Positions 1,175-39,490 of a stretch of 40,132 nucleotides of DNA are shown one piece after another. The translations under genes were made by a program, and so were the position numbers. The DNA lies in the IMG/VR virus record IMGVR_UViG_3300036781_000274, positions 1 through 40,132 of that record. One strand, 5' to 3'. A model generated the notes under the pieces. That model had not been told where the DNA came from. It saw only the letters and a list, made by a program, of their open reading frames with translations, and ran no database searches. The first letter of the stretch is position 1. The number at the start of each line of letters is the position of its first letter. The DNA comes from a virus.

Positions 1175-2059
1175 ATGTCAAATGCTTATGAAGTAGTTAC
1201 AAATAGACTCATCGCCAAACTAGAAACAGGCGTCATCCCGTGGCGTCAACCTTGGAAAAATACATCTCGCGGAGCACATCTCCCCTGCAACTTCGCCACT
1301 GGTCGCAGTTATCGCGGTATCAATACCGTGATGTTGCTTTGCAGCGGATTTCAGTCGAAACACTGGATGACGTACAAGCAAGCGCAGACACTCGGTGCGC
1401 AGGTTCGCAAGGGTGAGACGGGCACCCCTGTTGTCTTCTGGCAGTTTGGCGAAGAAGCGGATACGAAGAAAAAAACCGCGTGGTGCAAGTATTTTACTGC
1501 TTTCAACCTAGAACAGATTGACGGGATTCAACCCGAAATCCCTTTTGACGTTGCGCCGTTCGATGCCATCGCAGAGGCGCAAACCATAGTAGATGGCTAT
1601 CTCGCCGCCGCGTCTCATCCACGCTTGACGCATGGCGGTTCTATCGCGTGTTACTCGCAGTCCACCGACACCGTACACATGCCCGATGGCGTGCAGTTCG
1701 CCAAACGCGAGTTGTACTATGACACCCTTTTTCACGAACTAGGGCATAGCACCGCTCACCCGTCACGCCTCAAGCGTGATCTATCCGGCAAGTTCGGCAC
1801 TCCTGCTTATTCGCAAGAAGAATTGACCGCCGAATTTACCGCCGCGTTTCTTATGGCTGAATCCGGTATCAGCTCCGAACTTACAGAGGCACATAATGCG
1901 GCCTATCTCGCATCCTGGCTGCGTGTCCTCAAAGCTGATTCACGCATCGCTATCTTCGCCGCGCAACGGGCACAAAAGGCCGCAGACTACATCTGCGGTC
2001 GCACCGCCGCCCAGCTCGAAGAAGTGGCCGCCGACGCTGCGATGCAGGTGGCGGCATGA
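1175..2059 (+). CDS. ardC: ArdC-like antirestriction protein
   Basis: A 294-aa two-domain protein. Residues 5-90 match the ArdC N-terminal single-stranded-DNA-binding domain (DUF1738), with LETGVIPWRQPW, a GRSYRGIN segment and KGETGTPVVFW. Residues 125-280 form a zincin-type metallopeptidase domain with HELGH (187-191) and a downstream EELTAEF segment (215-221) that likely supplies the third zinc ligand. In plasmids such proteins are carried into new hosts and shield incoming DNA from restriction. Its place early in the rightward operon behind the hairpin leader fits an entry role. The length is normal for the family. The following gene overlaps its stop by 4 bp. Confidence 0.9.
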   Translation: MSNAYEVVTNRLIAKLETGVIPWRQPWKNTSRGAHLPCNFATGRSYRGINTVMLLCSGFQSKHWMTYKQAQTLGAQVRKGETGTPVVFWQFGEEADTKKKTAWCKYFTAFNLEQIDGIQPEIPFDVAPFDAIAEAQTIVDGYLAAASHPRLTHGGSIACYSQSTDTVHMPDGVQFAKRELYYDTLFHELGHSTAHPSRLKRDLSGKFGTPAYSQEELTAEFTAAFLMAESGISSELTEAHNAAYLASWLRVLKADSRIAIFAAQRAQKAADYICGRTAAQLEEVAADAAMQVAA

Positions 2060-4899: not shown

Positions 4900-5051
4900 C
4901 GAATGCTTACCTCTTCCAGCAACATCGGCAGATTGCATTTATTGCAGAATTGCATCTCCCGACACTCGGCCGCGGGGCGGTCTTCGATGGTTCCGCAACC
5001 GACGCACTTAAGCTTGAATGTAACTACCGCATTGGTTTTCTTCTTTTTCAT
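4896..5051 (-). CDS. 51-aa zinc-ribbon protein
   Basis: A short gene. It has a lysine-rich start (MKKKKT), CVGC at 16-19 and CNKC at 36-39, giving a four-cysteine zinc ribbon. GGAG lies 7 bases before the ATG. It overlaps the end of the HNH gene by 44 bp in another frame and joins the next gene by an ATGA overlap, so it fits the packed operon. The role is unknown. Confidence 0.6.
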   Translation of the reverse strand: MKKKKTNAVVTFKLKCVGCGTIEDRPAAECREMQFCNKCNLPMLLEEVSIR

Positions 5052-8944: not shown

Positions 8945-11900
8945 TTAGTAAACCGTACACATGCCGTCATAGGTCATCGACGCGGTGGCCGTGTGGGTGA
9001 CGGTGATCTGGTTGGTGGTCTTGGCGCTGATGTAAGTGGTGGCAATGTTGGTTGCGGCGGCGGCGTTGGTCGCGCCGAAGCTGCAATGCCCTGATGAGGT
9101 CATGCCCGAGACCGTCACCGTGTCGCTGGCCGCCGCCGTGGTGGTGAGGCTCCAGGGGCGAACGATGATGCTGTGACCCGAGTTCTGGAAGTCGCCGGTG
9201 GTGTCGGCGGTCGGCGGTCCTACTGCTGTGCCGGCTTGTCCGGTGTCTTTACATCCTCCATTGTTGGCTAGTGCGATGGTGATGTTGGCGCAAATCAACG
9301 ATGGGACGGTGTAACCTCCAGGCGCTGCGGTCCTGTAGACGTTTATGAACTGCGCGCCGTATCCAGGTGTGATATTCAGCGCATTGAAGTTGGTCGCGCT
9401 CAGCGTCGCATTGCCGGTGTTGGTGGTGATGGAAGCTGTGGGCAGTCCCTCCCCCAGCTGCGTTACGCTCGTCGCCTGGTAACTGTAGGTGGAAGATCCC
9501 GGAGTACCCCCCACAAAAACGCCATTGCCACCTGGCACCTTGGCCCCCGCATAGATAAGTGCGGTGTCATTTTCCTTCGACGATATGGCCGCCGAATTGT
9601 CAAACAAACCGCCACTGCCGAACACTGCATATGCTCCCATCGGTACGTTGTTTAGTTCGCTGTTGGCGCTGGTCATGGCAACCGGCGTCCCGCCATGTGC
9701 CTCTGTACCTGTAGAGAGGATGGGGCTATGGATGCTGCTGATGCCGTAGAGATTTGTAAAGTTGAAGGTCTGAGTCGGATAGGTGTAGGACATAATGCCG
9801 GTGTTGATCTGAAATATGTTGATGGGGAGATTGCTGTTGCATCCGCCCTGCGCGGAGATCGGACACCCGATGTTGAAGAGCGGCGAGCCGTCGATCGGCG
9901 CGAACTGATCGGTGATGAGTGTTCCTGTAACCCCAGCGACGTTGAGGAATTTAGGCGCGCTTAGTCTTCCGCCATCGCCGATGTAGTGATTCATCAGGTT
10001 GTTGTTCTGCCAAGAAAATAGCGCATAATTTCCGCTGGCTCCGTCGCCTTCTGTGCTGACAGAAATGCCGCCCGTTCCCACAAGTGGAATCTGCGTATTG
10101 ATCTGGTCATTCAGCGTAAACGTGTATCCGCGAAATGCAGGGTTGGGCGGGTTCTCAACCGTATCTCCCGCGTTCCATGCGACGGTGTTGGGTTCGAGCG
10201 TGCAGCCTGCGGATGTGCATGGACCTTTCAGCTCTGCGCCTGGAATCAGGTAAAAGTTGAATGTCAGTGATGGGAAGGAAAGCAGACAGCTCGATGATGT
10301 GCCGCTCGGGCCGCTCTGTGTCCACTGGAGCTGTTGACTGCCGATCGCAGTGATATTCCCCGTCGTTCCGTTGAATGCGCTATTAGTGCAGCTCGAGACA
10401 ACCGCGCTGCTGAGCCCGTTGTATTGCAGCGGATTGTTTGCTCCATAGGTCGCTGTAACCGTAGTCCCGCTGATGGTCAGATTGAGCAACGGCACGTTGG
10501 CCGTTACCGCCGAATAGTAATTCGGAATCGGCTTGCTGTTGTTGGTTGGATTTCCGTTCCCTCCGGTCTGAAAGAACCGTCCTACCAGGTGCGTCGTGTC
10601 GGGTGCGCCCAGCACGATATACGGTGCTGCCCAGCCATTCAGATAATCGCGCTGGGGAAGGTAGTAGTCGCCGCATGGCCCTCCCTGCCAAAGCGACGTT
10701 CCCACCTGACCGTTGGGGAAGAAGTGATTGAAGGTAACGCTCTGCGTGCCTCCTGAGAGTGTTCCAACCGCTGTAATCTGCACCGATTCGTACATCTCTT
10801 CACCGTCCAGGCAAGCTTGCCCGGTGGTGAATCCTCCGGCGTTCGTTCCGCCCAGCACGGTAAAGTTCACAGTGTCCGATTGCGGCGTCTGGTTGCCAGG
10901 GTTCGCCAGCGGCGGGATTGCAGCTTGCGCCTGCGCCCAAGCCGTCGATTCGGTGAAGGTCACTCCTGTAACCGGCGTAGACCAAGCCGCCAGTCCGGAG
11001 AATTGCGCCGCCGTCCCTGTCACTGTCCCCACTCCGACCAGGTGCGTTGTATCCAGCATCGTGCCGCCGATCGCGTACTGTGTTCTCCCTGTCGAGAAAG
11101 TGGTCTTGAGTAATAACGTTCCGTGGGAGCTGCCGGATACGGGTGTGCCATGAAACCATGTCGCGTTTTGCAACCGCTGAATGCCGCCTCCGGTGCATCC
11201 CTCATCCGCGCTCGCGATCGCGCCTCCGTCGCAGTGATTGTAAAAATAGAAATTCTGGGAGTCGCCGATCGAATATTTGGAAAACTGACCGCCCAACATC
11301 TGCCCGATGCCAGGCGTCGAATCGTTCATCGTCATGCTGATACCAGACTGCAATGACCAAGCCGGACCGCTGAATCCTGGGTACGGCGAACCATAGTCCC
11401 AGCCGGGCCCGTTGAAGGTGAGATAAAGAGAATGTGCGGTCTGTTTCTGGCTGAAGTCCGGTGCCTGGGTGAGCGCATCCCACGTCCCAAAAATCTGATG
11501 GCCGCCTGAGAACGGCTGTCCTGTGGGGTTGAATCCTCCCGCTCCGTTCACGATTGGATCGTAATAGAAATCTCCCTGGCTGCCGTTGCGGTAGTCCTGT
11601 ACGTGGGTATTGGCGACGGTAGTAAATGTCGCATAGGCGTTCTCCGTGGATGTGCTGGTTGCCGGAAACATCGGCGTACATGCACCCGACGCGCATACGC
11701 TGCTCATCAGGTTAGCCAGGCCGTTGTTGCCGCCTCCCGTCTCGGCGGTGTCGGTGTTGTAGCTTCCGTTCGCAAGCAACGTGCTTAGGCCGTGGCTGGT
11801 GGGATTGAACATGAACGATCCGTCTGCGTTGAACGCTGTCGCTCCGGTTCCGGCAAACTGCACGGCAAAGGCCGGGGATGCTGGCGGGCTTCCGCCGCCT

Positions 11901-29507: not shown

Positions 29508-29905
29508 TGTTCGTTCTCCAACTCTGCCAGTTCCCCGTTTACAGCCAATTCCAGTTCCTCAATGACACGACGAAATATTTTCACATACGCCCAGGCAATG
29601 GCGACTTCATCCCGGTTGGTAAGTGGATCGTCCTGACTAAGAGAAATAGCACGTTTCTGGTGAAAATGAATAGACTTTTCAGCGATGCGGAGATACAACT
29701 TCTGTCCCGGCATCTCCCAGAACTCCTTCAGATCCAGCCGTTCCGGCCGGCTCAGTTCGCGTTCGGGATCGTCGTACGCTCTCCGCTCCGCCGGCGCAGG
29801 CCTCGGCGTCATCTCCGGGTCTCGTCCGTTGCGTAGCGCGGCCAGCTCCGGGGTCAATGGCTCCCCGCGTAAAAACTTCTCGTGTGCGGTTAGGTTAGAC
29901 GCCAT
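29504..29905 (-). CDS. hypothetical protein between portal and scaffold
   Basis: A 133-aa protein. N-terminal part proline/arginine-rich (EMTPRPAPAERRAYDDPERELSRPERLD), C-terminal part helical (QKLYLRIAEKSIHFHQKR, then FRRVIEELELAVNGELAELENEQ). It overlaps the portal by 11 bp. No known domain; a head-assembly role is likely from its place. Confidence 0.55.
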   Translation of the reverse strand: MASNLTAHEKFLRGEPLTPELAALRNGRDPEMTPRPAPAERRAYDDPERELSRPERLDLKEFWEMPGQKLYLRIAEKSIHFHQKRAISLSQDDPLTNRDEVAIAWAYVKIFRRVIEELELAVNGELAELENEQ

Positions 29906-32108
29906 TCTGCAGCTCCCCCATGTCCGTGTTGCGCTCTAAACGGCCTTCGGCTTCCTCGAACTCCTGCGAACCCTCCAGCCGTTCTGCAACTTTGTCTGCG
30001 GCTGCCTTCACCACGGCGACTTGAGTATCGACCTTCCCTTTGGCATCGATGGCCTGCAGCTTGTTTTGTCCGCGTACTTGCTCGATCGCCGCTGCGCTCT
30101 GCGTTCTCTGAGCGGCCGGGTTCAATGCCTTCACCTGTTCCATCTCTTCCGGCGTGAGGTCCACGATGATGTCCTCCGCGCCCTGCAGCTCGCTCACGCG
30201 CATAAAGATCTTCTCGATCGCGGCAAAGTTGATCGTCTTCCCTTTCTGGTGCATAAATTCCATCAGTTGCGGCTGCTGCATCAGCTGCAGCATGAAGGGA
30301 ATCAGTTGCTGGATGGAGGCCTTCGCGGCCAGCTTCTGTCCCGCCAGGATCTTGATGTTGAACTCCGCGCAAACCAGCTTCTCCGGATCGATCTTATCGA
30401 TGATCGTGTCGGCGTATTTCTTGCTGAGAATTCTGCGGATCTCGGCGATCGGCATCTTGGTTTGCACAATCCACCACAGAAAGCGGTACCAGCGCACCAA
30501 CACGCCCTCGATATGAGAGATAGGCGTCGCCACGTTGTCGTCGGCCTTGTTTCCCAGCCGATTGACGCCGGTGGCCGTCTTCAGGGCGGTGGATCCGGGT
30601 CCGGTGTTGCCCTGCATGGTGGTCGCGTTCGCGCCTACCAGGTCCTCGCCGCCTTCCTTGCCCAGCTCGTAAATCTTCCACGCCTCGGGGGGTATCTCGG
30701 GCTTCGGGACATAGGCGAGAGCTTTTCTGATGTCGCCGCCGCCGGGCACGTTGACTCCCCATAGAGTGCCTAGCCCCATCACCACGTTCTGCGTCGGCTC
30801 GTTGCCGCTTGAGCTGTCATACATCAGCGGAGCGTTCGTCCAGTAGCCGATCATCTTCAGTACTTCGTTCAGCACGCCCTGGTCCATGCGCTGATCGCCC
30901 GCGTTCAACCGACCGATGCCCATGCCGTAGCCGCTGTTGTCGATGTTCCACCAATTCGCGGTGACACCAAGCGCGAAGTCCTGCAGGTCATGCGGCCCAT
31001 TCCGTATCGTCTTGCGCCGGCCCTGATAGCACAGCACTTCGATGATGTTCTCTTTGGTCGAATACTTGAGACGCATCAATGGCCGCAGGGTCGGATCCAC
31101 ATTAGTCTGCTCGTGCTCGCCCTGGGCATGGAAGACGACGGCCGAGTTGGAGTTCATGCTGTCGGAAGTTGTTGAGGCCGGCGCGGCATCGCCCAAGGGA
31201 TTCTCAAAAAAGAATTTCTTCAGGTCCTCGTCGTCGGGAATGTCCTTGTAGCAGTCCATTTCGCGGAGCTGCTGCAGGTCCTGCAGGTTCGGGTAATCGA
31301 CATCGATCTTTCCGTGCGCGCTCATCTCCGGTCGGTTCGGTGTGCGCCACGCCGGATCGTAGAGCGTCGTTCCTAGTTTTCGGTATTCAAAGTAAGGCCA
31401 GGTCTCCGTCACCCTGCTGGTCACAGGTTCAAACTCATCGCTCTCCCAGGTATTGACGATCCTCGGCGGTCCTACCGGCATCTGGATCTGTTCGGGCTGC
31501 TTTTTGCGTTTGCGCGTCGTATACACGCATTCCTTCTCTTCATACCCCATGTCGCCGATCCCGGTTCCCTGAAGTACCAGGCAGTCGATCAGCAGTCCCA
31601 TGTTGTATTCGAGGTCCGCGCGTTCGCTCAGCGTGTTGAAGATCTCGGTGATGGCATCGACATAAATCTCCTGGTCGTCGTCGTCGGCCAGCGGTCCACG
31701 CGGTTCCAGTAGAAACGGAGTCGGATCGGCAAAGACGCCTCGTTTGATCTGTGTCGCCATCGTGTTCGAGTTCTTGGCCACATTGAACCGCGAAATGCGC
31801 GCCGTTCCGCCGTTACTTCCGCGCCAATTGCTGTCGAAGTTAGGGCTTTGCTTGAGGTAATCGATGTACTGCCATTCAGCGAGCCACGCATTCTCGTCCA
31901 GCCATCCAACCCACGCCTGGTAGTTCTCCCACACGATCGTCGCCGCCGCGTCGTCGTCGTATGCGGTCTCTGTCGCGCCGTCTTCCCCCAGCTCGGCCTG
32001 CGACTGCGCTATGCGCGGGGTCATCTCATTGCCTAGCGGCATTCCATCGCCGCCAGCTCTCGCCGCTACGTCGTCACTCTCGCGCGGGATATCCAGTTCT
32101 TCAGCCAT
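29895..32108 (-). CDS. portal (head-tail connector) protein
   Basis: A 737-aa protein, large for a podovirus portal (T7 gp8 is about 536 aa) and close to N4-type portals. It sits next to the terminase and overlaps it by 8 bp. Features: an acidic N-terminus, then WENYQAWVGWLDENAWLAEWQYIDYL; a central domain with FNTLSERADLEYNMGLLIDCLVLQGTGIGDMGYE; and a long helical C-terminus (FMLQLMQQPQLMEFMHQ; ALNPAAQRTQSAAAIEQVRGQ) as in portal barrels. Confidence 0.75.
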   Translation of the reverse strand: MAEELDIPRESDDVAARAGGDGMPLGNEMTPRIAQSQAELGEDGATETAYDDDAAATIVWENYQAWVGWLDENAWLAEWQYIDYLKQSPNFDSNWRGSNGGTARISRFNVAKNSNTMATQIKRGVFADPTPFLLEPRGPLADDDDQEIYVDAITEIFNTLSERADLEYNMGLLIDCLVLQGTGIGDMGYEEKECVYTTRKRKKQPEQIQMPVGPPRIVNTWESDEFEPVTSRVTETWPYFEYRKLGTTLYDPAWRTPNRPEMSAHGKIDVDYPNLQDLQQLREMDCYKDIPDDEDLKKFFFENPLGDAAPASTTSDSMNSNSAVVFHAQGEHEQTNVDPTLRPLMRLKYSTKENIIEVLCYQGRRKTIRNGPHDLQDFALGVTANWWNIDNSGYGMGIGRLNAGDQRMDQGVLNEVLKMIGYWTNAPLMYDSSSGNEPTQNVVMGLGTLWGVNVPGGGDIRKALAYVPKPEIPPEAWKIYELGKEGGEDLVGANATTMQGNTGPGSTALKTATGVNRLGNKADDNVATPISHIEGVLVRWYRFLWWIVQTKMPIAEIRRILSKKYADTIIDKIDPEKLVCAEFNIKILAGQKLAAKASIQQLIPFMLQLMQQPQLMEFMHQKGKTINFAAIEKIFMRVSELQGAEDIIVDLTPEEMEQVKALNPAAQRTQSAAAIEQVRGQNKLQAIDAKGKVDTQVAVVKAAADKVAERLEGSQEFEEAEGRLERNTDMGELQNGV

Positions 32109-33795
32109 CCAACCCTCCCGGCATCGGCGGTAGTCTATACGTCGTCGCTTCCTGCATCGCCTGCTGGTGTGCCATCGCCTTTTTCTTTACCTGGTCATCC
32201 ACGATTGGCGTACCCTGAAGATTCAGGAGCCAGTTCAACGTAGCATCGTCCTTACGGCTCCGCTGGTATTCTGCTTCATCATCTTCCAGTGCGGCGCGCA
32301 TCTGTGACATTGGCACCAGGTTCCCAAGCTTCGACACGCACTCGATGATGCCGTTCTCTTCGATCAGGCCAAAGTAGACAAACTGCTTCTTACATTCGCT
32401 GCCTTTGGTCATGCCCCGCGCGAAGATAATCCGTCCTACTTTGAGCAACGGTTCCATCTGTTTAATCGAGCTGTTGCGCAGGTTTTCATTGTCTTCAAAG
32501 TCGCTCCACTGAATACGCAGGCTGACATTCTTTCTTGCGGCCTCATTCCGAATATGCGGTGTAAAAGCATCGCATCCGGGTGTATTCAGAATCATCATTC
32601 CATCGGCCTGCAGCTCGCGGTGAATCTTGACCATCCTCTCGGCCTGATGGCTGGGCGTGCCGCCGATCTGCCAGCAGTCGATCACGTACACCTTGCCGTC
32701 GATGATCCGCGCCGCCGCACCTTCCATCAGTTTGCTCGTCGCCGGCTTGCTGCCATACTGCAGACGCCAGCACACAAACGTCTCGCCACCATAGGGCGGG
32801 ATGCGCTCGATGTCAGCCTCGCACGTTCCATACAGTTTCTCGTCGAAGATCGGCGTATGGCCACCCTGGGGGTCATTCTGCTGCTGACACATGAAAGTTT
32901 CGTAGTTCTCATAAAACATTCCACGCAACCGCTTGTACGTCATGCCTGGCAAATCGGAGAATGGCAAGATCACTTCATCTTCTGGAGGGAACTCCCCGAG
33001 CAAAAGCCGCGATCCGTCCTTGCGCTCGATCGAGTGGCGAATCAAAACATCCCACTCGTCGGGGTCCATATCCGCGAGTCTGACACCGTAGAGATCGAAA
33101 GGGTGGTAGCGTGTGCCGACGAGATATAGGTAACCGCCTGGGACGAGGGTGTTTTTGTTGGTGTCGAAGGTCTCGATGACACCCTGCCGCGCGTCCTGCG
33201 TCGCGCGGATACCGCTGTTCTTCGTGGCCACCATGTCATCGCAGTTAAGCAGCCACGGATGCCAACCGGATTGTTCCGTCTGCGGCGATGTATATGCGAT
33301 CGTATCGTCTAGCGCGTTTGTATCGTGAGTGGGAACATTCCACGAATCGGCAAAGTTGAGTGGTTCTTTATTCACCACCAACTCGGGGAAGCAAAGCTGG
33401 AAGCGCGTCGGCTTCTCATACTTGGGGCAGTAGAAGTAATTGCCAATGCCTTTGGATATCTTCTTCGCGAGCGGTTGTGTGGCCGTCTGATTCAGCAGGG
33501 TGATGAACTTCGGGAACCCCGCAATCCACTGCACCTTATCCACGCGGTTCCATGTGGTCTTGTAGGTGAAGCGTGGATCGAAGTGCATGAGCTTCTTTTT
33601 CTGGCGCTGCTCCTCGATCGACAGCAAAGGATTTTTCCTGCCATAGAGATCGGCGACTGGCTTATGCAGGATCGGATGGAACTCCCATCCCAACATACGA
33701 CCTGCGAAGAATGGATCGGTAATGAAGCGATGCCGCAAATCTTCGCGATAGGCGGCATCCTGGACAATGCGTTCGTTGTCGTCTGGTTCAATCAT
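32101..33795 (-). CDS. terL: terminase large subunit
   Basis: A 564-aa DNA-packaging motor. The ATPase domain has a Walker A-like PRFTYKTT (74-81), in which the usual glycines are replaced, and a Walker B LLNCDDMV (182-189). The C-terminal nuclease-like half has conserved acidic segments (KVYVIDCWQIGG). The length is typical. No clear small terminase subunit is next to it; the 105-aa gene at 33803 is the only candidate. Confidence 0.88.
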   Translation of the reverse strand: MIEPDDNERIVQDAAYREDLRHRFITDPFFAGRMLGWEFHPILHKPVADLYGRKNPLLSIEEQRQKKKLMHFDPRFTYKTTWNRVDKVQWIAGFPKFITLLNQTATQPLAKKISKGIGNYFYCPKYEKPTRFQLCFPELVVNKEPLNFADSWNVPTHDTNALDDTIAYTSPQTEQSGWHPWLLNCDDMVATKNSGIRATQDARQGVIETFDTNKNTLVPGGYLYLVGTRYHPFDLYGVRLADMDPDEWDVLIRHSIERKDGSRLLLGEFPPEDEVILPFSDLPGMTYKRLRGMFYENYETFMCQQQNDPQGGHTPIFDEKLYGTCEADIERIPPYGGETFVCWRLQYGSKPATSKLMEGAAARIIDGKVYVIDCWQIGGTPSHQAERMVKIHRELQADGMMILNTPGCDAFTPHIRNEAARKNVSLRIQWSDFEDNENLRNSSIKQMEPLLKVGRIIFARGMTKGSECKKQFVYFGLIEENGIIECVSKLGNLVPMSQMRAALEDDEAEYQRSRKDDATLNWLLNLQGTPIVDDQVKKKAMAHQQAMQEATTYRLPPMPGGLDG

Positions 33796-33802
33796 GGCGT
33801 GG

Positions 33803-34120
33803 CTACTGTCCCGGCATCACTCCGCCACCCGCTGATGCATCCGGCGCCGCGCCACCCGGAGCTGCTGACGCATCGGGCGCTGCACCCGCGTCAGGCGGCG
33901 GTTCATTCATCCCGAACTGTTCCGCCGCGTGGTCGCCGGCCTCGTCTGCAGTCATGCTGACGGCGGTGTTTTTCCGCTCGGGTTCGGTCTCGGCGTCTCC
34001 GCGCTTCTTTTTGTACGTCTGATGATGAACGTAATGCCCGTCTTCGGTCTCTTCAATCGTGTGCTTGTGAAGGTGTTTTCGCTCGGGCTTTTTTTCTTTC
34101 TCTTTTTTTTCTTCGGCCAT
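33803..34120 (-). CDS. charged hypothetical protein, possible small terminase
   Basis: A 105-aa protein. Its start is nearly all K/E/H (AEEKKEKEKKPERKHLHKH) with several histidines (HYVHHQTY). The end is a disordered P/A/G/D-rich tail. No HTH is visible. Position immediately upstream of terL is where a small terminase subunit is expected, but the length and composition are poor for one. Confidence 0.5.
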   Translation of the reverse strand: MAEEKKEKEKKPERKHLHKHTIEETEDGHYVHHQTYKKKRGDAETEPERKNTAVSMTADEAGDHAAEQFGMNEPPPDAGAAPDASAAPGGAAPDASAGGGVMPGQ

Positions 34121-34138
34121 ACTTCCCTCCTTTAGGGT

Positions 34139-34253
34139 TGGTTGGATCGCCAGGACTCGAACCTGGACGCCACACTTTCTACCGGGATATCACTCGGTAG
34201 GTTTGTGCGACACAGCCTCTCCGGCTGCGCGTCTACCATTTCGCCACAATCCA
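34139..34253 (-). tRNA. leucine-type tRNA with aberrant anticodon loop and oversized variable arm
   Basis: Read on the minus strand from 34253: acceptor TGGATTG pairs with CGATCCA (one G-U), then a 3-bp D stem GCG/CGC with AAATGGTAGA loop as in leucine tRNAs. The anticodon arm is CAGCC-GGAGA-GGCTG, so the loop has 5 bases. Opening the top pair gives a 7-base CGGAGAG with GAG in the anticodon place but G instead of U at 33. The variable arm is about 45 bases and folds as CGCACA/TGTGGCG enclosing CTACCG/CGGTAG. T arm CCAGG-TTCGAGT-CCTGG, discriminator A and encoded CCA are normal. It lies inside the late operon. Confidence 0.75.
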
Positions 34254-34262
34254 AATCAATCT

Positions 34263-34892
34263 CTAGCCGACGCTGAACTTCTGAATGTTCACTGTCGTCA
34301 GTGCCCCACCAGTGGCTCCGCTGGATGCGAAGGTGAGGGTAAAGCCTGGGAGATTCGCTACGGTCGGAGGGTTCGCGGACGGATTGCCCTGGTTGAGAAA
34401 TCCGCTGGGGAAGTTGGAGAGGGTTACCGCTGCCACAATGATTTTGTTGACGTAGAAGTCGATTTTACCGACCAGTAGTCCGCTCACTGAATCGAAGATG
34501 AGTTGCGCATGTGCAAACCATGCCGCGATCGCGGTGTTCTGCGTGATCGCGCCGCTGCTGCCCAGCAATGTATTGCTGGCGATGGTATCGCTGACCCCCT
34601 CGTACACGTCGATGGTCACAGTTCCGCTAGCCCTGGTCTGTATGTAGCCGGAAGCATAGAGGTCAAACACGGTCTGTTCAAGCTGCGTGTCGGGCGGGAT
34701 CTGGATCGCGAGGGGAACAGCAGCATTTGGCGCGCTGGGTGCAATCGTCTGGGTGGCTGCTGCCAGCGTGAACTGAACCGGCAATATGCCGGCCAGCGTC
34801 TGGGTCTGCGTCGCCTGCTGGTTGAGGGGGATTTGGTTCGCTACGCTGGCCGCTCCTGAATTAGGGCCATAGGGACGATCTGACAGAGCCAT
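34263..34892 (-). CDS. beta-rich structural protein
   Basis: A 209-aa protein, T/A/G/V-rich. Segments such as LYASGYIQTRASGTVTIDVYEG and GFTLTFASSGATGG form regular strands, like a decoration or fibre protein. CCAGGAGAGTAAGT precedes the ATG. Similar in style to the gene at 25928 but without obvious sequence identity. Function in the virion is inferred from the location. Confidence 0.6.
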   Translation of the reverse strand: MALSDRPYGPNSGAASVANQIPLNQQATQTQTLAGILPVQFTLAAATQTIAPSAPNAAVPLAIQIPPDTQLEQTVFDLYASGYIQTRASGTVTIDVYEGVSDTIASNTLLGSSGAITQNTAIAAWFAHAQLIFDSVSGLLVGKIDFYVNKIIVAAVTLSNFPSGFLNQGNPSANPPTVANLPGFTLTFASSGATGGALTTVNIQKFSVG

Positions 34893-37188: not shown

Positions 37189-37274
37189 CTCCGGTGTAGA
37201 GATTACAGTAAGCTATACGGTAGAACCTCTGTATGCACTACCGTAATCCCTACGGTGTGGCATATCGTAATCTC
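37184..37274. repeat. cluster of GTAATCTC-type and TACGGTAG inverted repeats before parA
   Basis: GTAATCTC at 37184 and inverted GAGATTAC at 37199; GTAATCCC at 37243; GTAATCTC again at 37267-37274, directly against the ATG. In addition TACGGTAG (37216) and CTACCGTA (37238) form an inverted pair. Such clusters before parA usually act as centromere and/or autoregulation sites bound by the small partner protein. parA itself has no strong ribosome site. Confidence 0.6.
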
Positions 37275-38015
37275 ATGCCAATCATTGTTGCCATTGCGAA
37301 CCAAAAAGGCGGCTGCGGAAAGACCACCACCACCATGAACCTCGCCGGCGGCCTCTCCCGCGCCAAGTATTCCGTACTGGTCGTCGATGCCGATCCGCAA
37401 GCCAGTTCGACCGTTTGGAGCCTGGCACAAGGGCAGGGAAGGCTGCCGTTTGATGTCAGGCCGGCTCGCCAACTCAAATGGCGCTTCTCGGCCCTCCAGG
37501 AGGCCGAGGAGGAGATTGTTCTGGTCGACTGTCCTCCTGGCATCACCGACCCGAACGACGAGGCCGCCAGGTTCACCAGGGCGGTACTCCGTGGGGTCGA
37601 CGCAATCCTGGTGCCGCTCCGTCACACGACGCTCGATTTCTCAGCGGCGGCCAGCTTCGTGCTCTACCTGATGCGCGAGAAGATGCCAGAAACTAAGGTC
37701 GCCGTTCTCATCAACGCCCGCAAGAATACCCTCCTCGGTCGTCAGTCGCTGGACAAGGCTGCGGTCCTGTTCTCGCCGATCGAGGGTACTGTCGTCCTCA
37801 ACACCACCATCGGCGATCGCGCTCCGATTGCGGAAGTGTCCGGGTCCGGTGAAACCATCTTTGACTATGCTCCCAGCCATACAGCGGCGAAAGAGTACGT
37901 CGAACTAACTAAGGAGATCCTGTCATGGCTCAGAAACGTGCCCCCCTCGCCGCATACGCTCTCGAAAGCCTCCACGCTGACATTGCCCCCATCCGAGATC
38001 ACCGAACGCCTGTAG
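37275..38015 (+). CDS. parA: ParA partition ATPase
   Basis: A 246-aa ParA/MinD-family ATPase. Deviant Walker A KGGCGKTT (11-18), LVVDADPQ, and IVLVDCPPG follow in order. It moves plasmid copies apart by ATP-driven DNA binding. ATG 37275 is preferred, since the N-terminus then begins directly with the strand before Walker A; 37233 is possible. The last 30 residues (VPPSPHTLSKASTL...) are encoded by DNA that also encodes the partner protein (91-bp overlap), and are probably a disordered tail. Confidence 0.88.
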   Translation: MPIIVAIANQKGGCGKTTTTMNLAGGLSRAKYSVLVVDADPQASSTVWSLAQGQGRLPFDVRPARQLKWRFSALQEAEEEIVLVDCPPGITDPNDEAARFTRAVLRGVDAILVPLRHTTLDFSAAASFVLYLMREKMPETKVAVLINARKNTLLGRQSLDKAAVLFSPIEGTVVLNTTIGDRAPIAEVSGSGETIFDYAPSHTAAKEYVELTKEILSWLRNVPPSPHTLSKASTLTLPPSEITERL

Positions 38016-38476: not shown

Positions 38477-39490
38477 CTAGCCGAGGTCCACCTTTACGCG
38501 CGGCGCGATCGCTGGCCGGCTGACGCGGATCTCCAGACCGCCGCCCTGGGGAGGGTAACCAAACTTGAGTCCTGGGTGGGCTAACTTCACCTTGCGCATT
38601 GCGCCCTTGATTTTTTTCTTGAGGTTGCCCTGGTCTGCGTATTCGCAGCCGAGCTGTTGGCCCAGCAGTCTCCATGTGATGAAGTGCTTGGTTTTCCCTC
38701 TCTGCTTGAGGTTTGCGCCGATGTAGTTGCAAAAAAGATATAAATCCAGCGCCAGCGGCGACTTTCGCAATATGCCGATTGCACGCATATCAAACGGAAT
38801 CGCGCTCTCCATAATCGCGGCGAAGAAGGTAGGGCTAAGGTCGATGTAACTGGCGAACAGTGCGCGTTTTCCAGGCGTCCACCATCCGATCTGGCTTTCC
38901 TCAACGATCGGTTGCTGGCGCGTGAATTCCATCTCGGCGTGTTGCAGCTTTTCTCCGTCCCAGGCGGTGTCGCGGTATCGGGTCCGATAGCTGATGTGCG
39001 ACATGATGAGACGAGCGAATTGGTCTTTTACTCGCGCCGTGTCGCTTCGTTTTCCGCCCTTCGTTGTGTCCAGCCCCAACTCATGCGAGAAGTCAGCTAG
39101 GCGGCCTCCGAGATGAAGCCGCCGCACCCCTGTACGCTTAGCCTCGGTGACTATCCAGATGAGAATCAGGCGCGGCAAAATGCCATAGGGATACCCCACT
39201 GAACAGTCGTTTTTTTCATCCCATCCGGGTTGAATGACGAGTGTGTAATCACCGTTCTTACGCTTCCATACCGGCACTTTACCCGGATCTTTATGGGGCA
39301 ACGTGCATTGCACCAAAAAGCGCGCAAGGAAGGCGGTTTTTCCCAGCGGATCGCCCTTGATTTCTTCCGATCCCTGGATAAGTTTTAGGTCCGCTTTGGT
39401 TGGTTCTGGGGTGGCTGCGGCGGTCCCGATTTGCTCTTTCAGGCCCGTTACATCTGCGATCTCAGCGATGGAATTGGGAAGGTCGTTCAT
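38477..39490 (-). CDS. repA: RepA-family replication initiator
   Basis: A 337-aa plasmid initiator of the RepA group (PF04796-like). The signature segment YGILPRLILIWIVTEAKRTGVRRLHLGG, then FSHELGLDTTKGGKRSDTARVKDQFARLIMSHISY (about 104-170) is clear. The C-terminal part is a winged-helix-like region with WRLLGQQLGCEYADQGNLKKKIKGAMRKV. It binds the iterons at 39622-39839 and opens the origin with DnaA. AAGGA is only four bases before the ATG, and the start lies in the inverted repeat 39488-39501, pointing to autoregulation. Confidence 0.88.
   Translation of the reverse strand: MNDLPNSIAEIADVTGLKEQIGTAAATPEPTKADLKLIQGSEEIKGDPLGKTAFLARFLVQCTLPHKDPGKVPVWKRKNGDYTLVIQPGWDEKNDCSVGYPYGILPRLILIWIVTEAKRTGVRRLHLGGRLADFSHELGLDTTKGGKRSDTARVKDQFARLIMSHISYRTRYRDTAWDGEKLQHAEMEFTRQQPIVEESQIGWWTPGKRALFASYIDLSPTFFAAIMESAIPFDMRAIGILRKSPLALDLYLFCNYIGANLKQRGKTKHFITWRLLGQQLGCEYADQGNLKKKIKGAMRKVKLAHPGLKFGYPPQGGGLEIRVSRPAIAPRVKVDLG

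Follow-up and report, generated by a model that had tools for sequence, protein, structure and literature searches.

A leucine-type tRNA mimic with an encoded CCA lies on the minus strand at positions 34139-34253 of the window, a 40,132-base virus record from IMG/VR. Its shape and the absence of a normal decoding loop are well supported, and it probably cannot decode. The earlier note on this DNA had described a leucine-type cloverleaf in the late operon, and its coordinates were right. The element retains the acceptor stem, D arm, T arm, discriminator A73 and CCA of a canonical tRNA-Leu, and lacks the 17-nt anticodon arm, the 7-nt anticodon loop and U33. As to what such an element does, our favoured but tentative explanation is that it serves in cis as a structured, probably processed, element between two cistrons.

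The mimic fills the gap between two late cistrons and is on the same strand as their coding strand. Upstream is P0003 (34263-34892, minus strand), a protein of 209 aa without assigned function that has 9 related loci, and downstream is P0002 (33803-34120, minus strand), a small charged protein of 105 aa; the mimic starts 9 nt past the P0003 stop codon, and its CCA ends 18 nt ahead of the P0002 start. On the same strand follow the terminase large subunit (32101-33795; phrog_38, E 4.6e-15) and a head-tail adaptor/portal-like protein (29895-32108; phrog_332, E 5.8e-9). Scans for promoters and terminators around the element returned no site above chance. No close annotated phage was found for the window, and a search for terminase relatives among genome contigs found none. 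Elsewhere the record encodes a ParA-like ATPase (37233-38015, plus strand), a RepA_C replication protein (38477-39490, minus strand) and an ArdC-like anti-restriction protein (1175-2059, plus strand), so that it looks like a phage-plasmid.

All parts of the cloverleaf can be placed on the minus strand. The 5' strand of the acceptor stem, UGGAUUG (34247-34253), forms 7 of 7 pairs with the 3' strand CGAUCCA (34143-34149), both in the sequence and in the predicted fold, and the 3' strand is also placed by cmscan. Direct reading then gives U8, G18-G19 in the D loop and G26. The D arm, GCG-AAAUGGUAGA-CGC (34229-34244), follows the cmscan alignment and belongs to a 21-nt stretch that exactly matches tRNA-Leu genes in many genomes. 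The T arm, CCAGG-UUCGAGU-CCUGG (34150-34166), was recovered by cmscan and by a T-arm search, and A73 with the CCA (34139-34142) can be read from the sequence. These arms had been called intact beforehand, and the sequence, cmscan and the fold agree. The departures are confined to the anticodon and variable arms. With nucleotide 26 kept in its standard place, the anticodon arm (34213-34227) is CAGCC-GGAGA-GGCUG, 5 pairs closing a sealed 5-nt loop (34218-34222), and measures 15 nt versus 17 in the canonical form. If G26 is instead taken as nucleotide 27, an alternative register offers 5 pairs and a 7-nt loop with G33 and the anticodon GAG; the loop had been described as either two bases short or carrying G33, and each description holds in its own register. 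The variable region (34167-34212), previously put at about 45 bases and double-hairpinned, is 46 nt long and folds into two stacked helices, GUCGCAC/GUGUGGC with CUACCG/CGGUAG as a cap, versus 12-18 nt in 81 control genome Leu hits.

Detection of the element depended on how the search was run. The Infernal check that the earlier note had proposed bore it out: cmscan over 601 bases gave RF00005 at 36.4 bits (E 5e-6, gathering threshold 29), the only Rfam family at E<=1 within 33900-34500. With fast filters, cmscan over the whole window did not report the element, nor did ARAGORN, and an RF00005 search of the whole record at E up to 10, of limited sensitivity, returned it as the only match. Energy minimisation returns the cloverleaf (-46.4 kcal/mol, z -2.81), a stability that 1 of 200 shuffled sequences reached. 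In our own cloverleaf scan, which ignores U33, the element scored 46.2, the top score in 745,752 bases of family DNA on both strands, versus a top score of 37.2 on shuffled DNA.

The same scan applied to 80 genome control loci, picked by an exact match to the Leu D arm, found U33 in 127 of 127 tRNAs and no sealed loops, and the ordinary tRNAs found in L074, L077 and L078 all carry U33. In five annotated phage regions U33 was present in 69 of 75 matches; two of the six others are unannotated tRNA mimics, and the remaining four are tRNAs that have C33 in a loop normal in all other respects. The presence of the latter in phage clusters means that U33 is not absolute. The four C33 tRNAs (L270:14688, L271:14396, L271:15961 and L271:20491) are in Caulobacter and Brevundimonas phages. 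Judged from its anticodon arm, decoding by the window element is unlikely; the proposal that it is not an ordinary tRNA, and may be a non-decoding RNA, accords with the 15-nt arm and the lack of U33 in the standard register.

Altered anticodon arms recur in the family when the search is blind to the anticodon. We queried with perfect T arms only, over 41,890 nt, largely intergenic, from the surroundings of P0003, P0002 and the terminase in 63 regions, which came from terminase searches (24, later 60 loci) with L027, L030 and the window added, and which include near-duplicates (e.g., L011/L012, L041/L042, L043/L044, L050/L051, L056/L060 and L063/L064). Nine T arms were found versus 0.15 expected from shuffles, in 7 of the 63 regions: the window, L013, L027, L040 (2), L057 (2), L059 and L071. 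Since an upstream half is missing from one of the two L040 T arms, 8 elements remained in which the stretch from D stem to T stem could be measured. A D stem is present in all 8 and a canonical 17-nt anticodon arm in none (Fisher p 1.6e-4, a value to be read with the small numbers and possible shared ancestry of the elements in mind). Arms with 5 pairs and a 5-nt loop occur in four of them, with the loops GGAGA (window), CAGGG (L027), CGGGG (second element of L057) and CAUGG (L013). Long hairpins, about 18-20 nt longer, take the place of the anticodon arm in L059 and L071, and in the first L057 element and the L040 element the arm is shortened to about 11 nt. From D stem to T stem, three normal type I tRNAs measure 23 nt, and the mimics measure 21 nt (L027 and L057 second), 41 nt (L059), 43 nt (L071), 17 nt (L057 first) and 16 nt (L040); the window (62 nt) and L013 (41 nt) both have long variable regions. 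By eye, at least 6 of 7 acceptor pairs form in 6 of the 8 elements, with 5 pairs in L071 and about 4 in L040. L013 is the weakest of the set, with a short D loop and an offset acceptor. This distribution of tRNA look-alikes in several relatives suggests that they are retained for a purpose other than translation.

Conservation in close relatives had been put forward as a check, and the outcome is divided: the exact element is absent and other RNA structure occupies the gap, while the class of tRNA-like elements recurs. By the earlier note's own standard, this absence counts against the element itself, though not against the class. Neither blastn of the window element against the family loci nor a pattern scan of viral contigs for Leu mimics bearing the loop GGAGA (0 matches) gave a second copy. 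Because the exact element is unique to the window, covariation cannot test it. In L002-L005 and L009, whose terminases are 88-93% identical, the P0003|P0002 gap holds different structured spacers or hairpins. An RF00005 search of 28 whole records found the window element only, and cmscan detected no tRNA in four relatives; neither search recovered the L027 element, which ARAGORN calls a tRNA-Pro, so that absence in these searches is weak. Our own cloverleaf scanners were written after these misses; ARAGORN with relaxed thresholds gave mainly noise. Ignoring U33, the scan of whole loci ranked the window first and L057 second, with L013 within the top seven. When the whole anticodon arm was ignored, the top five were L059, the window, L027, L071 and L057, all above the best shuffle (34.5), and L013 at 32.0 was not above the best shuffles. 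One scanner, scan3, accepts only candidates whose acceptor, D and T arms are intact and so favours anticodon damage, a bias of which the T-arm search is free. A portal-based search for further relatives returned 78 loci, and in 23 of these the T-arm search over the DNA preceding the portal (65,657 nt) gave 0 matches; the 23 include contigs already counted (L112, L130 and L146), and several have <600 nt upstream.

Whatever its sequence, the P0003|P0002 junction usually holds a stable RNA structure in the window's family. Among gaps of 60-300 nt, 30 of 46 have z<-2 against dinucleotide shuffles (median z -2.48), versus 2 of 57 coding controls taken from stretches of P0003 homologues (median -0.14). 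In a minority of relatives tRNA-like elements are found at this junction or in neighbouring gaps, none of them with a canonical anticodon arm. Two other motifs are common to small sets of relatives: AUGRCC...CCCUGYYCGC...GCGGRCAGG...GGAUGGYCAU, a structured RNA that is not tRNA-like, in the P0003|P0002 gap of L008, L009 and L010, and another in L003, L043 and L044. That the junction is usually structured is our main reason for favouring a cis role; by the same token, the stability of the element may count for more than its likeness to a tRNA.

The next gap, between P0002 and the terminase, is at most 31 nt in 39 of 59 regions, which marks it as an optional hotspot. In L057 and L059 it contains the mimics in tandem cassettes (three and two, respectively) with the common ends AAGUUUGC and GCAAUUCAA and no encoded CCA. 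Compared with L058, the two-cassette insertion of L059 is flanked on both sides by GGGGAUGUAA-like sequence, which hints, without proving it, that the insertion came with a short duplication. Related cassette ends enclose non-tRNA inserts in L056/L060, L061, L062 and L010. A pattern scan combining cassette ends with a T arm returned 5 loci: 2 known family contigs and 3 others, the latter comprising an ordinary tRNA cluster (L077) and one normal tRNA-Met locus (L074 and L078). Since the pattern also matches ordinary tRNA loci, the ends are partly common to ordinary tRNAs, by chance or descent. Larger structured RNAs were seen at L056:3290-3466, L060:3448-3624, L059:3732-3848 and L016:3289-3453. 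By eye, an acceptor-like closing helix stands beside a T-arm-like hairpin in L056/L060, the second L059 cassette and L016, and these RNAs are possibly highly diverged tRNA mimics. Apparent extra coding sequence was noted by eye in the same gap of L014, L015, L018, L045 and L049; about 500 nt in L045 resemble, again by eye, an HNH-type homing endonuclease gene.

The explanation we favour, at a probability somewhat short of even, is that the non-decoding mimic is a structured and probably processed intercistronic element acting in cis. The mimic would be transcribed within the late mRNA and would stand in it as a structured element between cistrons. RNase P and RNase Z bind the acceptor and T-arm part of tRNA, and such host tRNA-maturation enzymes could recognise the acceptor/T half of the mimic, with RNase P acting on the 5' side and the CCA or RNase Z setting the 3' side. 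Cleavage would separate the message for P0003 from that for P0002 and the terminase and leave a defined, protected end, and the by-product, with its anticodon arm closed, would not enter translation. In favour of this reading are the intact top half of the tRNA with its CCA and the tight fit between stop and start codons, and diverged cassettes also seem to keep the acceptor-like helix and T-arm-like hairpin. Among the functions the earlier note had listed, the one that best suits the structured gaps is a tRNA-like role in regulation or structure. Against the favoured explanation, the acceptor stem in L057 is prolonged into a longer helix with its flanks, which would be an obstacle to the usual processing of a tRNA. 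Most relatives have non-tRNA structures in the P0003|P0002 gap, so that recognition of a tRNA as such may not be required. With other mimics in the P0002|terminase gap or upstream of P0003, and RNA1 of phage T5 in a tRNA cluster, one cis role would not account for every case.

T5 RNA1 provides a precedent, showing that phages can maintain a tRNA-like RNA whose anticodon arm has been rebuilt. The T5 record (AY543070) annotates RNA1 and RNA2 as "tRNA-like stable RNA with unknown functions", and both resemble the window element in having intact acceptor, D and T arms around an altered anticodon arm. In RNA1, Leu-like D, acceptor and T arms surround a long rebuilt anticodon arm; a search with it matched 484 phage records, 421 of them covering at least 80%. 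With the structure taken from T5 together with the consensus of the alignment, pairing holds in 98.9% of 544 cells over 16 chosen sequences, and changes on both sides occur in 11 of 34 pairs, 6 of them in the rebuilt anticodon arm and 4 in the acceptor. Both-side-change cells number 48, versus 13 (sd 3) after shuffling and no more than 5 after sliding; a further covariation measure, "further pair types", was not above shuffles. In RNA1, at L269 (T5) 10502-10645, the tip of the rebuilt arm has the sequence GAACAUCC.CUC, which is nearly invariant across 16 relatives and is a possible binding site. The window element has the RNA1-type feature of kept tRNA arms around a rebuilt anticodon arm, but RNA1 has a long covarying hairpin where the window has a sealed 5-nt loop, and it sits in a tRNA cluster. 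No full-length similarity links the two: blastn of the window element against phages returned 68 records, none covering 80%, and the best 20 of the 68 are short pieces, mostly within tRNA genes.

Other tRNA-like elements that are not annotated lie at L271:17147-17261 (Brevundimonas phage Kikimora) and at L273:4394-4492 and 4961-5036 (Salmonella phage pSal-SNUABM-04). They share with the window element a tRNA-like acceptor and T arm and a modified anticodon region, but lie near normal tRNA genes and differ in sequence. The Kikimora element was found in 11 records (7 covering at least 80%), one pSal-SNUABM-04 element in 4 and the other in 1; for two of the three, the Kikimora element and the second of pSal-SNUABM-04, the predicted minimum-energy fold is not a clean cloverleaf. 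Outside phages, the Bacillus cereus tRNA-Other pseudo-tRNA (PMC3399842) is described as a chromosomal, genomic-island-linked RNA that affects stress-gene expression; it is a non-translating, tRNA-like element inside larger transcripts, as the window element is proposed to be, but is not described as having a phage operon role. A literature search, with most subscription papers outside its scope, gave no account of sealed-loop phage tRNA mimics or of T5 RNA1 function.

The strongest alternative, which we consider rather unlikely, is that a recently captured tRNA-Leu gene, of phage or host origin, is decaying, with a two-base loop deletion and a variable-arm insertion, and that its leftover stability makes it a structured spacer. 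Two indels could convert a normal tRNA-Leu into the window element, which exists in this contig only; L040 carries fragments of three tRNAs, one without a 5' half and one stopping after the D arm, and phage tRNA genes come and go. However, damage is focused on the anticodon arm across the 8 elements while D stems remain intact in all, the same arm of 5 pairs and a 5-nt loop appears in four different tRNA backgrounds, and the inserted variable arm itself folds, although this argument is limited by shared ancestry and small numbers. A plain pseudogene, already doubted in the earlier note, is a poor fit because related elements nearby repeatedly lose the canonical anticodon arm and keep the D and T arms, with most of the acceptor.

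It is less probable still that the RNA acts in trans, being processed, accumulating and occupying a host protein that binds the acceptor/T half, such as a tRNA-tail-cleaving defence nuclease, a nucleotidyl-transferase toxin or EF-Tu, with the sealed loop keeping it off the ribosome. Its acceptor end and CCA are intact, the elements are optional cargo with tandem cassettes in L057 and L059, and published reports describe a tRNA-tail-targeting defence, Cas12a3 (PMC12851939), and phage tRNAs that counter tRNA-targeting defence (PMC10264068, PMC11555353). A late structural operon would, however, be late timing for anti-defence, no target is known, and the L057 and L059 cassettes, without an encoded CCA, may not be released. 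The narrower suggestion of a decoy for anticodon nucleases is unsupported because the element has no normal anticodon loop to cut.

Most improbable is a working tRNA that decodes leucine codons through the alternative register, for although that register yields GAG in a 7-nt loop and C33 tRNAs account for four of the six exceptions in phage clusters, it would require the loss of nucleotide 26, a 32-38 pair and the lack of U33 all together, against the closed loops or replacement arms of relatives and the uniform U33 of the control tRNAs.

Beyond the cis role favoured for the window, a broader reading is conceivable, which we hold at less than an even chance. Several unrelated phage groups may carry a largely unannotated class of RNAs, tRNA mimics with a sealed, cut or rebuilt anticodon arm, selected for recognition by tRNA-maturation or tRNA-binding proteins and not for decoding; in one uncultivated family they would be mobile as tandem cassettes with the ends AAGUUUGC...GCAAUUCAA at a hotspot before the terminase, and tRNA finders would reject or misname them. 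If the mimics are functional, phages would be reusing the tRNA fold without its code, standard annotation would hide such elements, and the unexplained tRNA-like RNAs of T5 would gain a wider context. A testable question would then be what recognises a tRNA without an anticodon in the infected cell, the candidates being defence proteins with tRNA ends as their binding site, or processing enzymes, in a form of the RNA punctuation that is familiar mainly from mitochondria.
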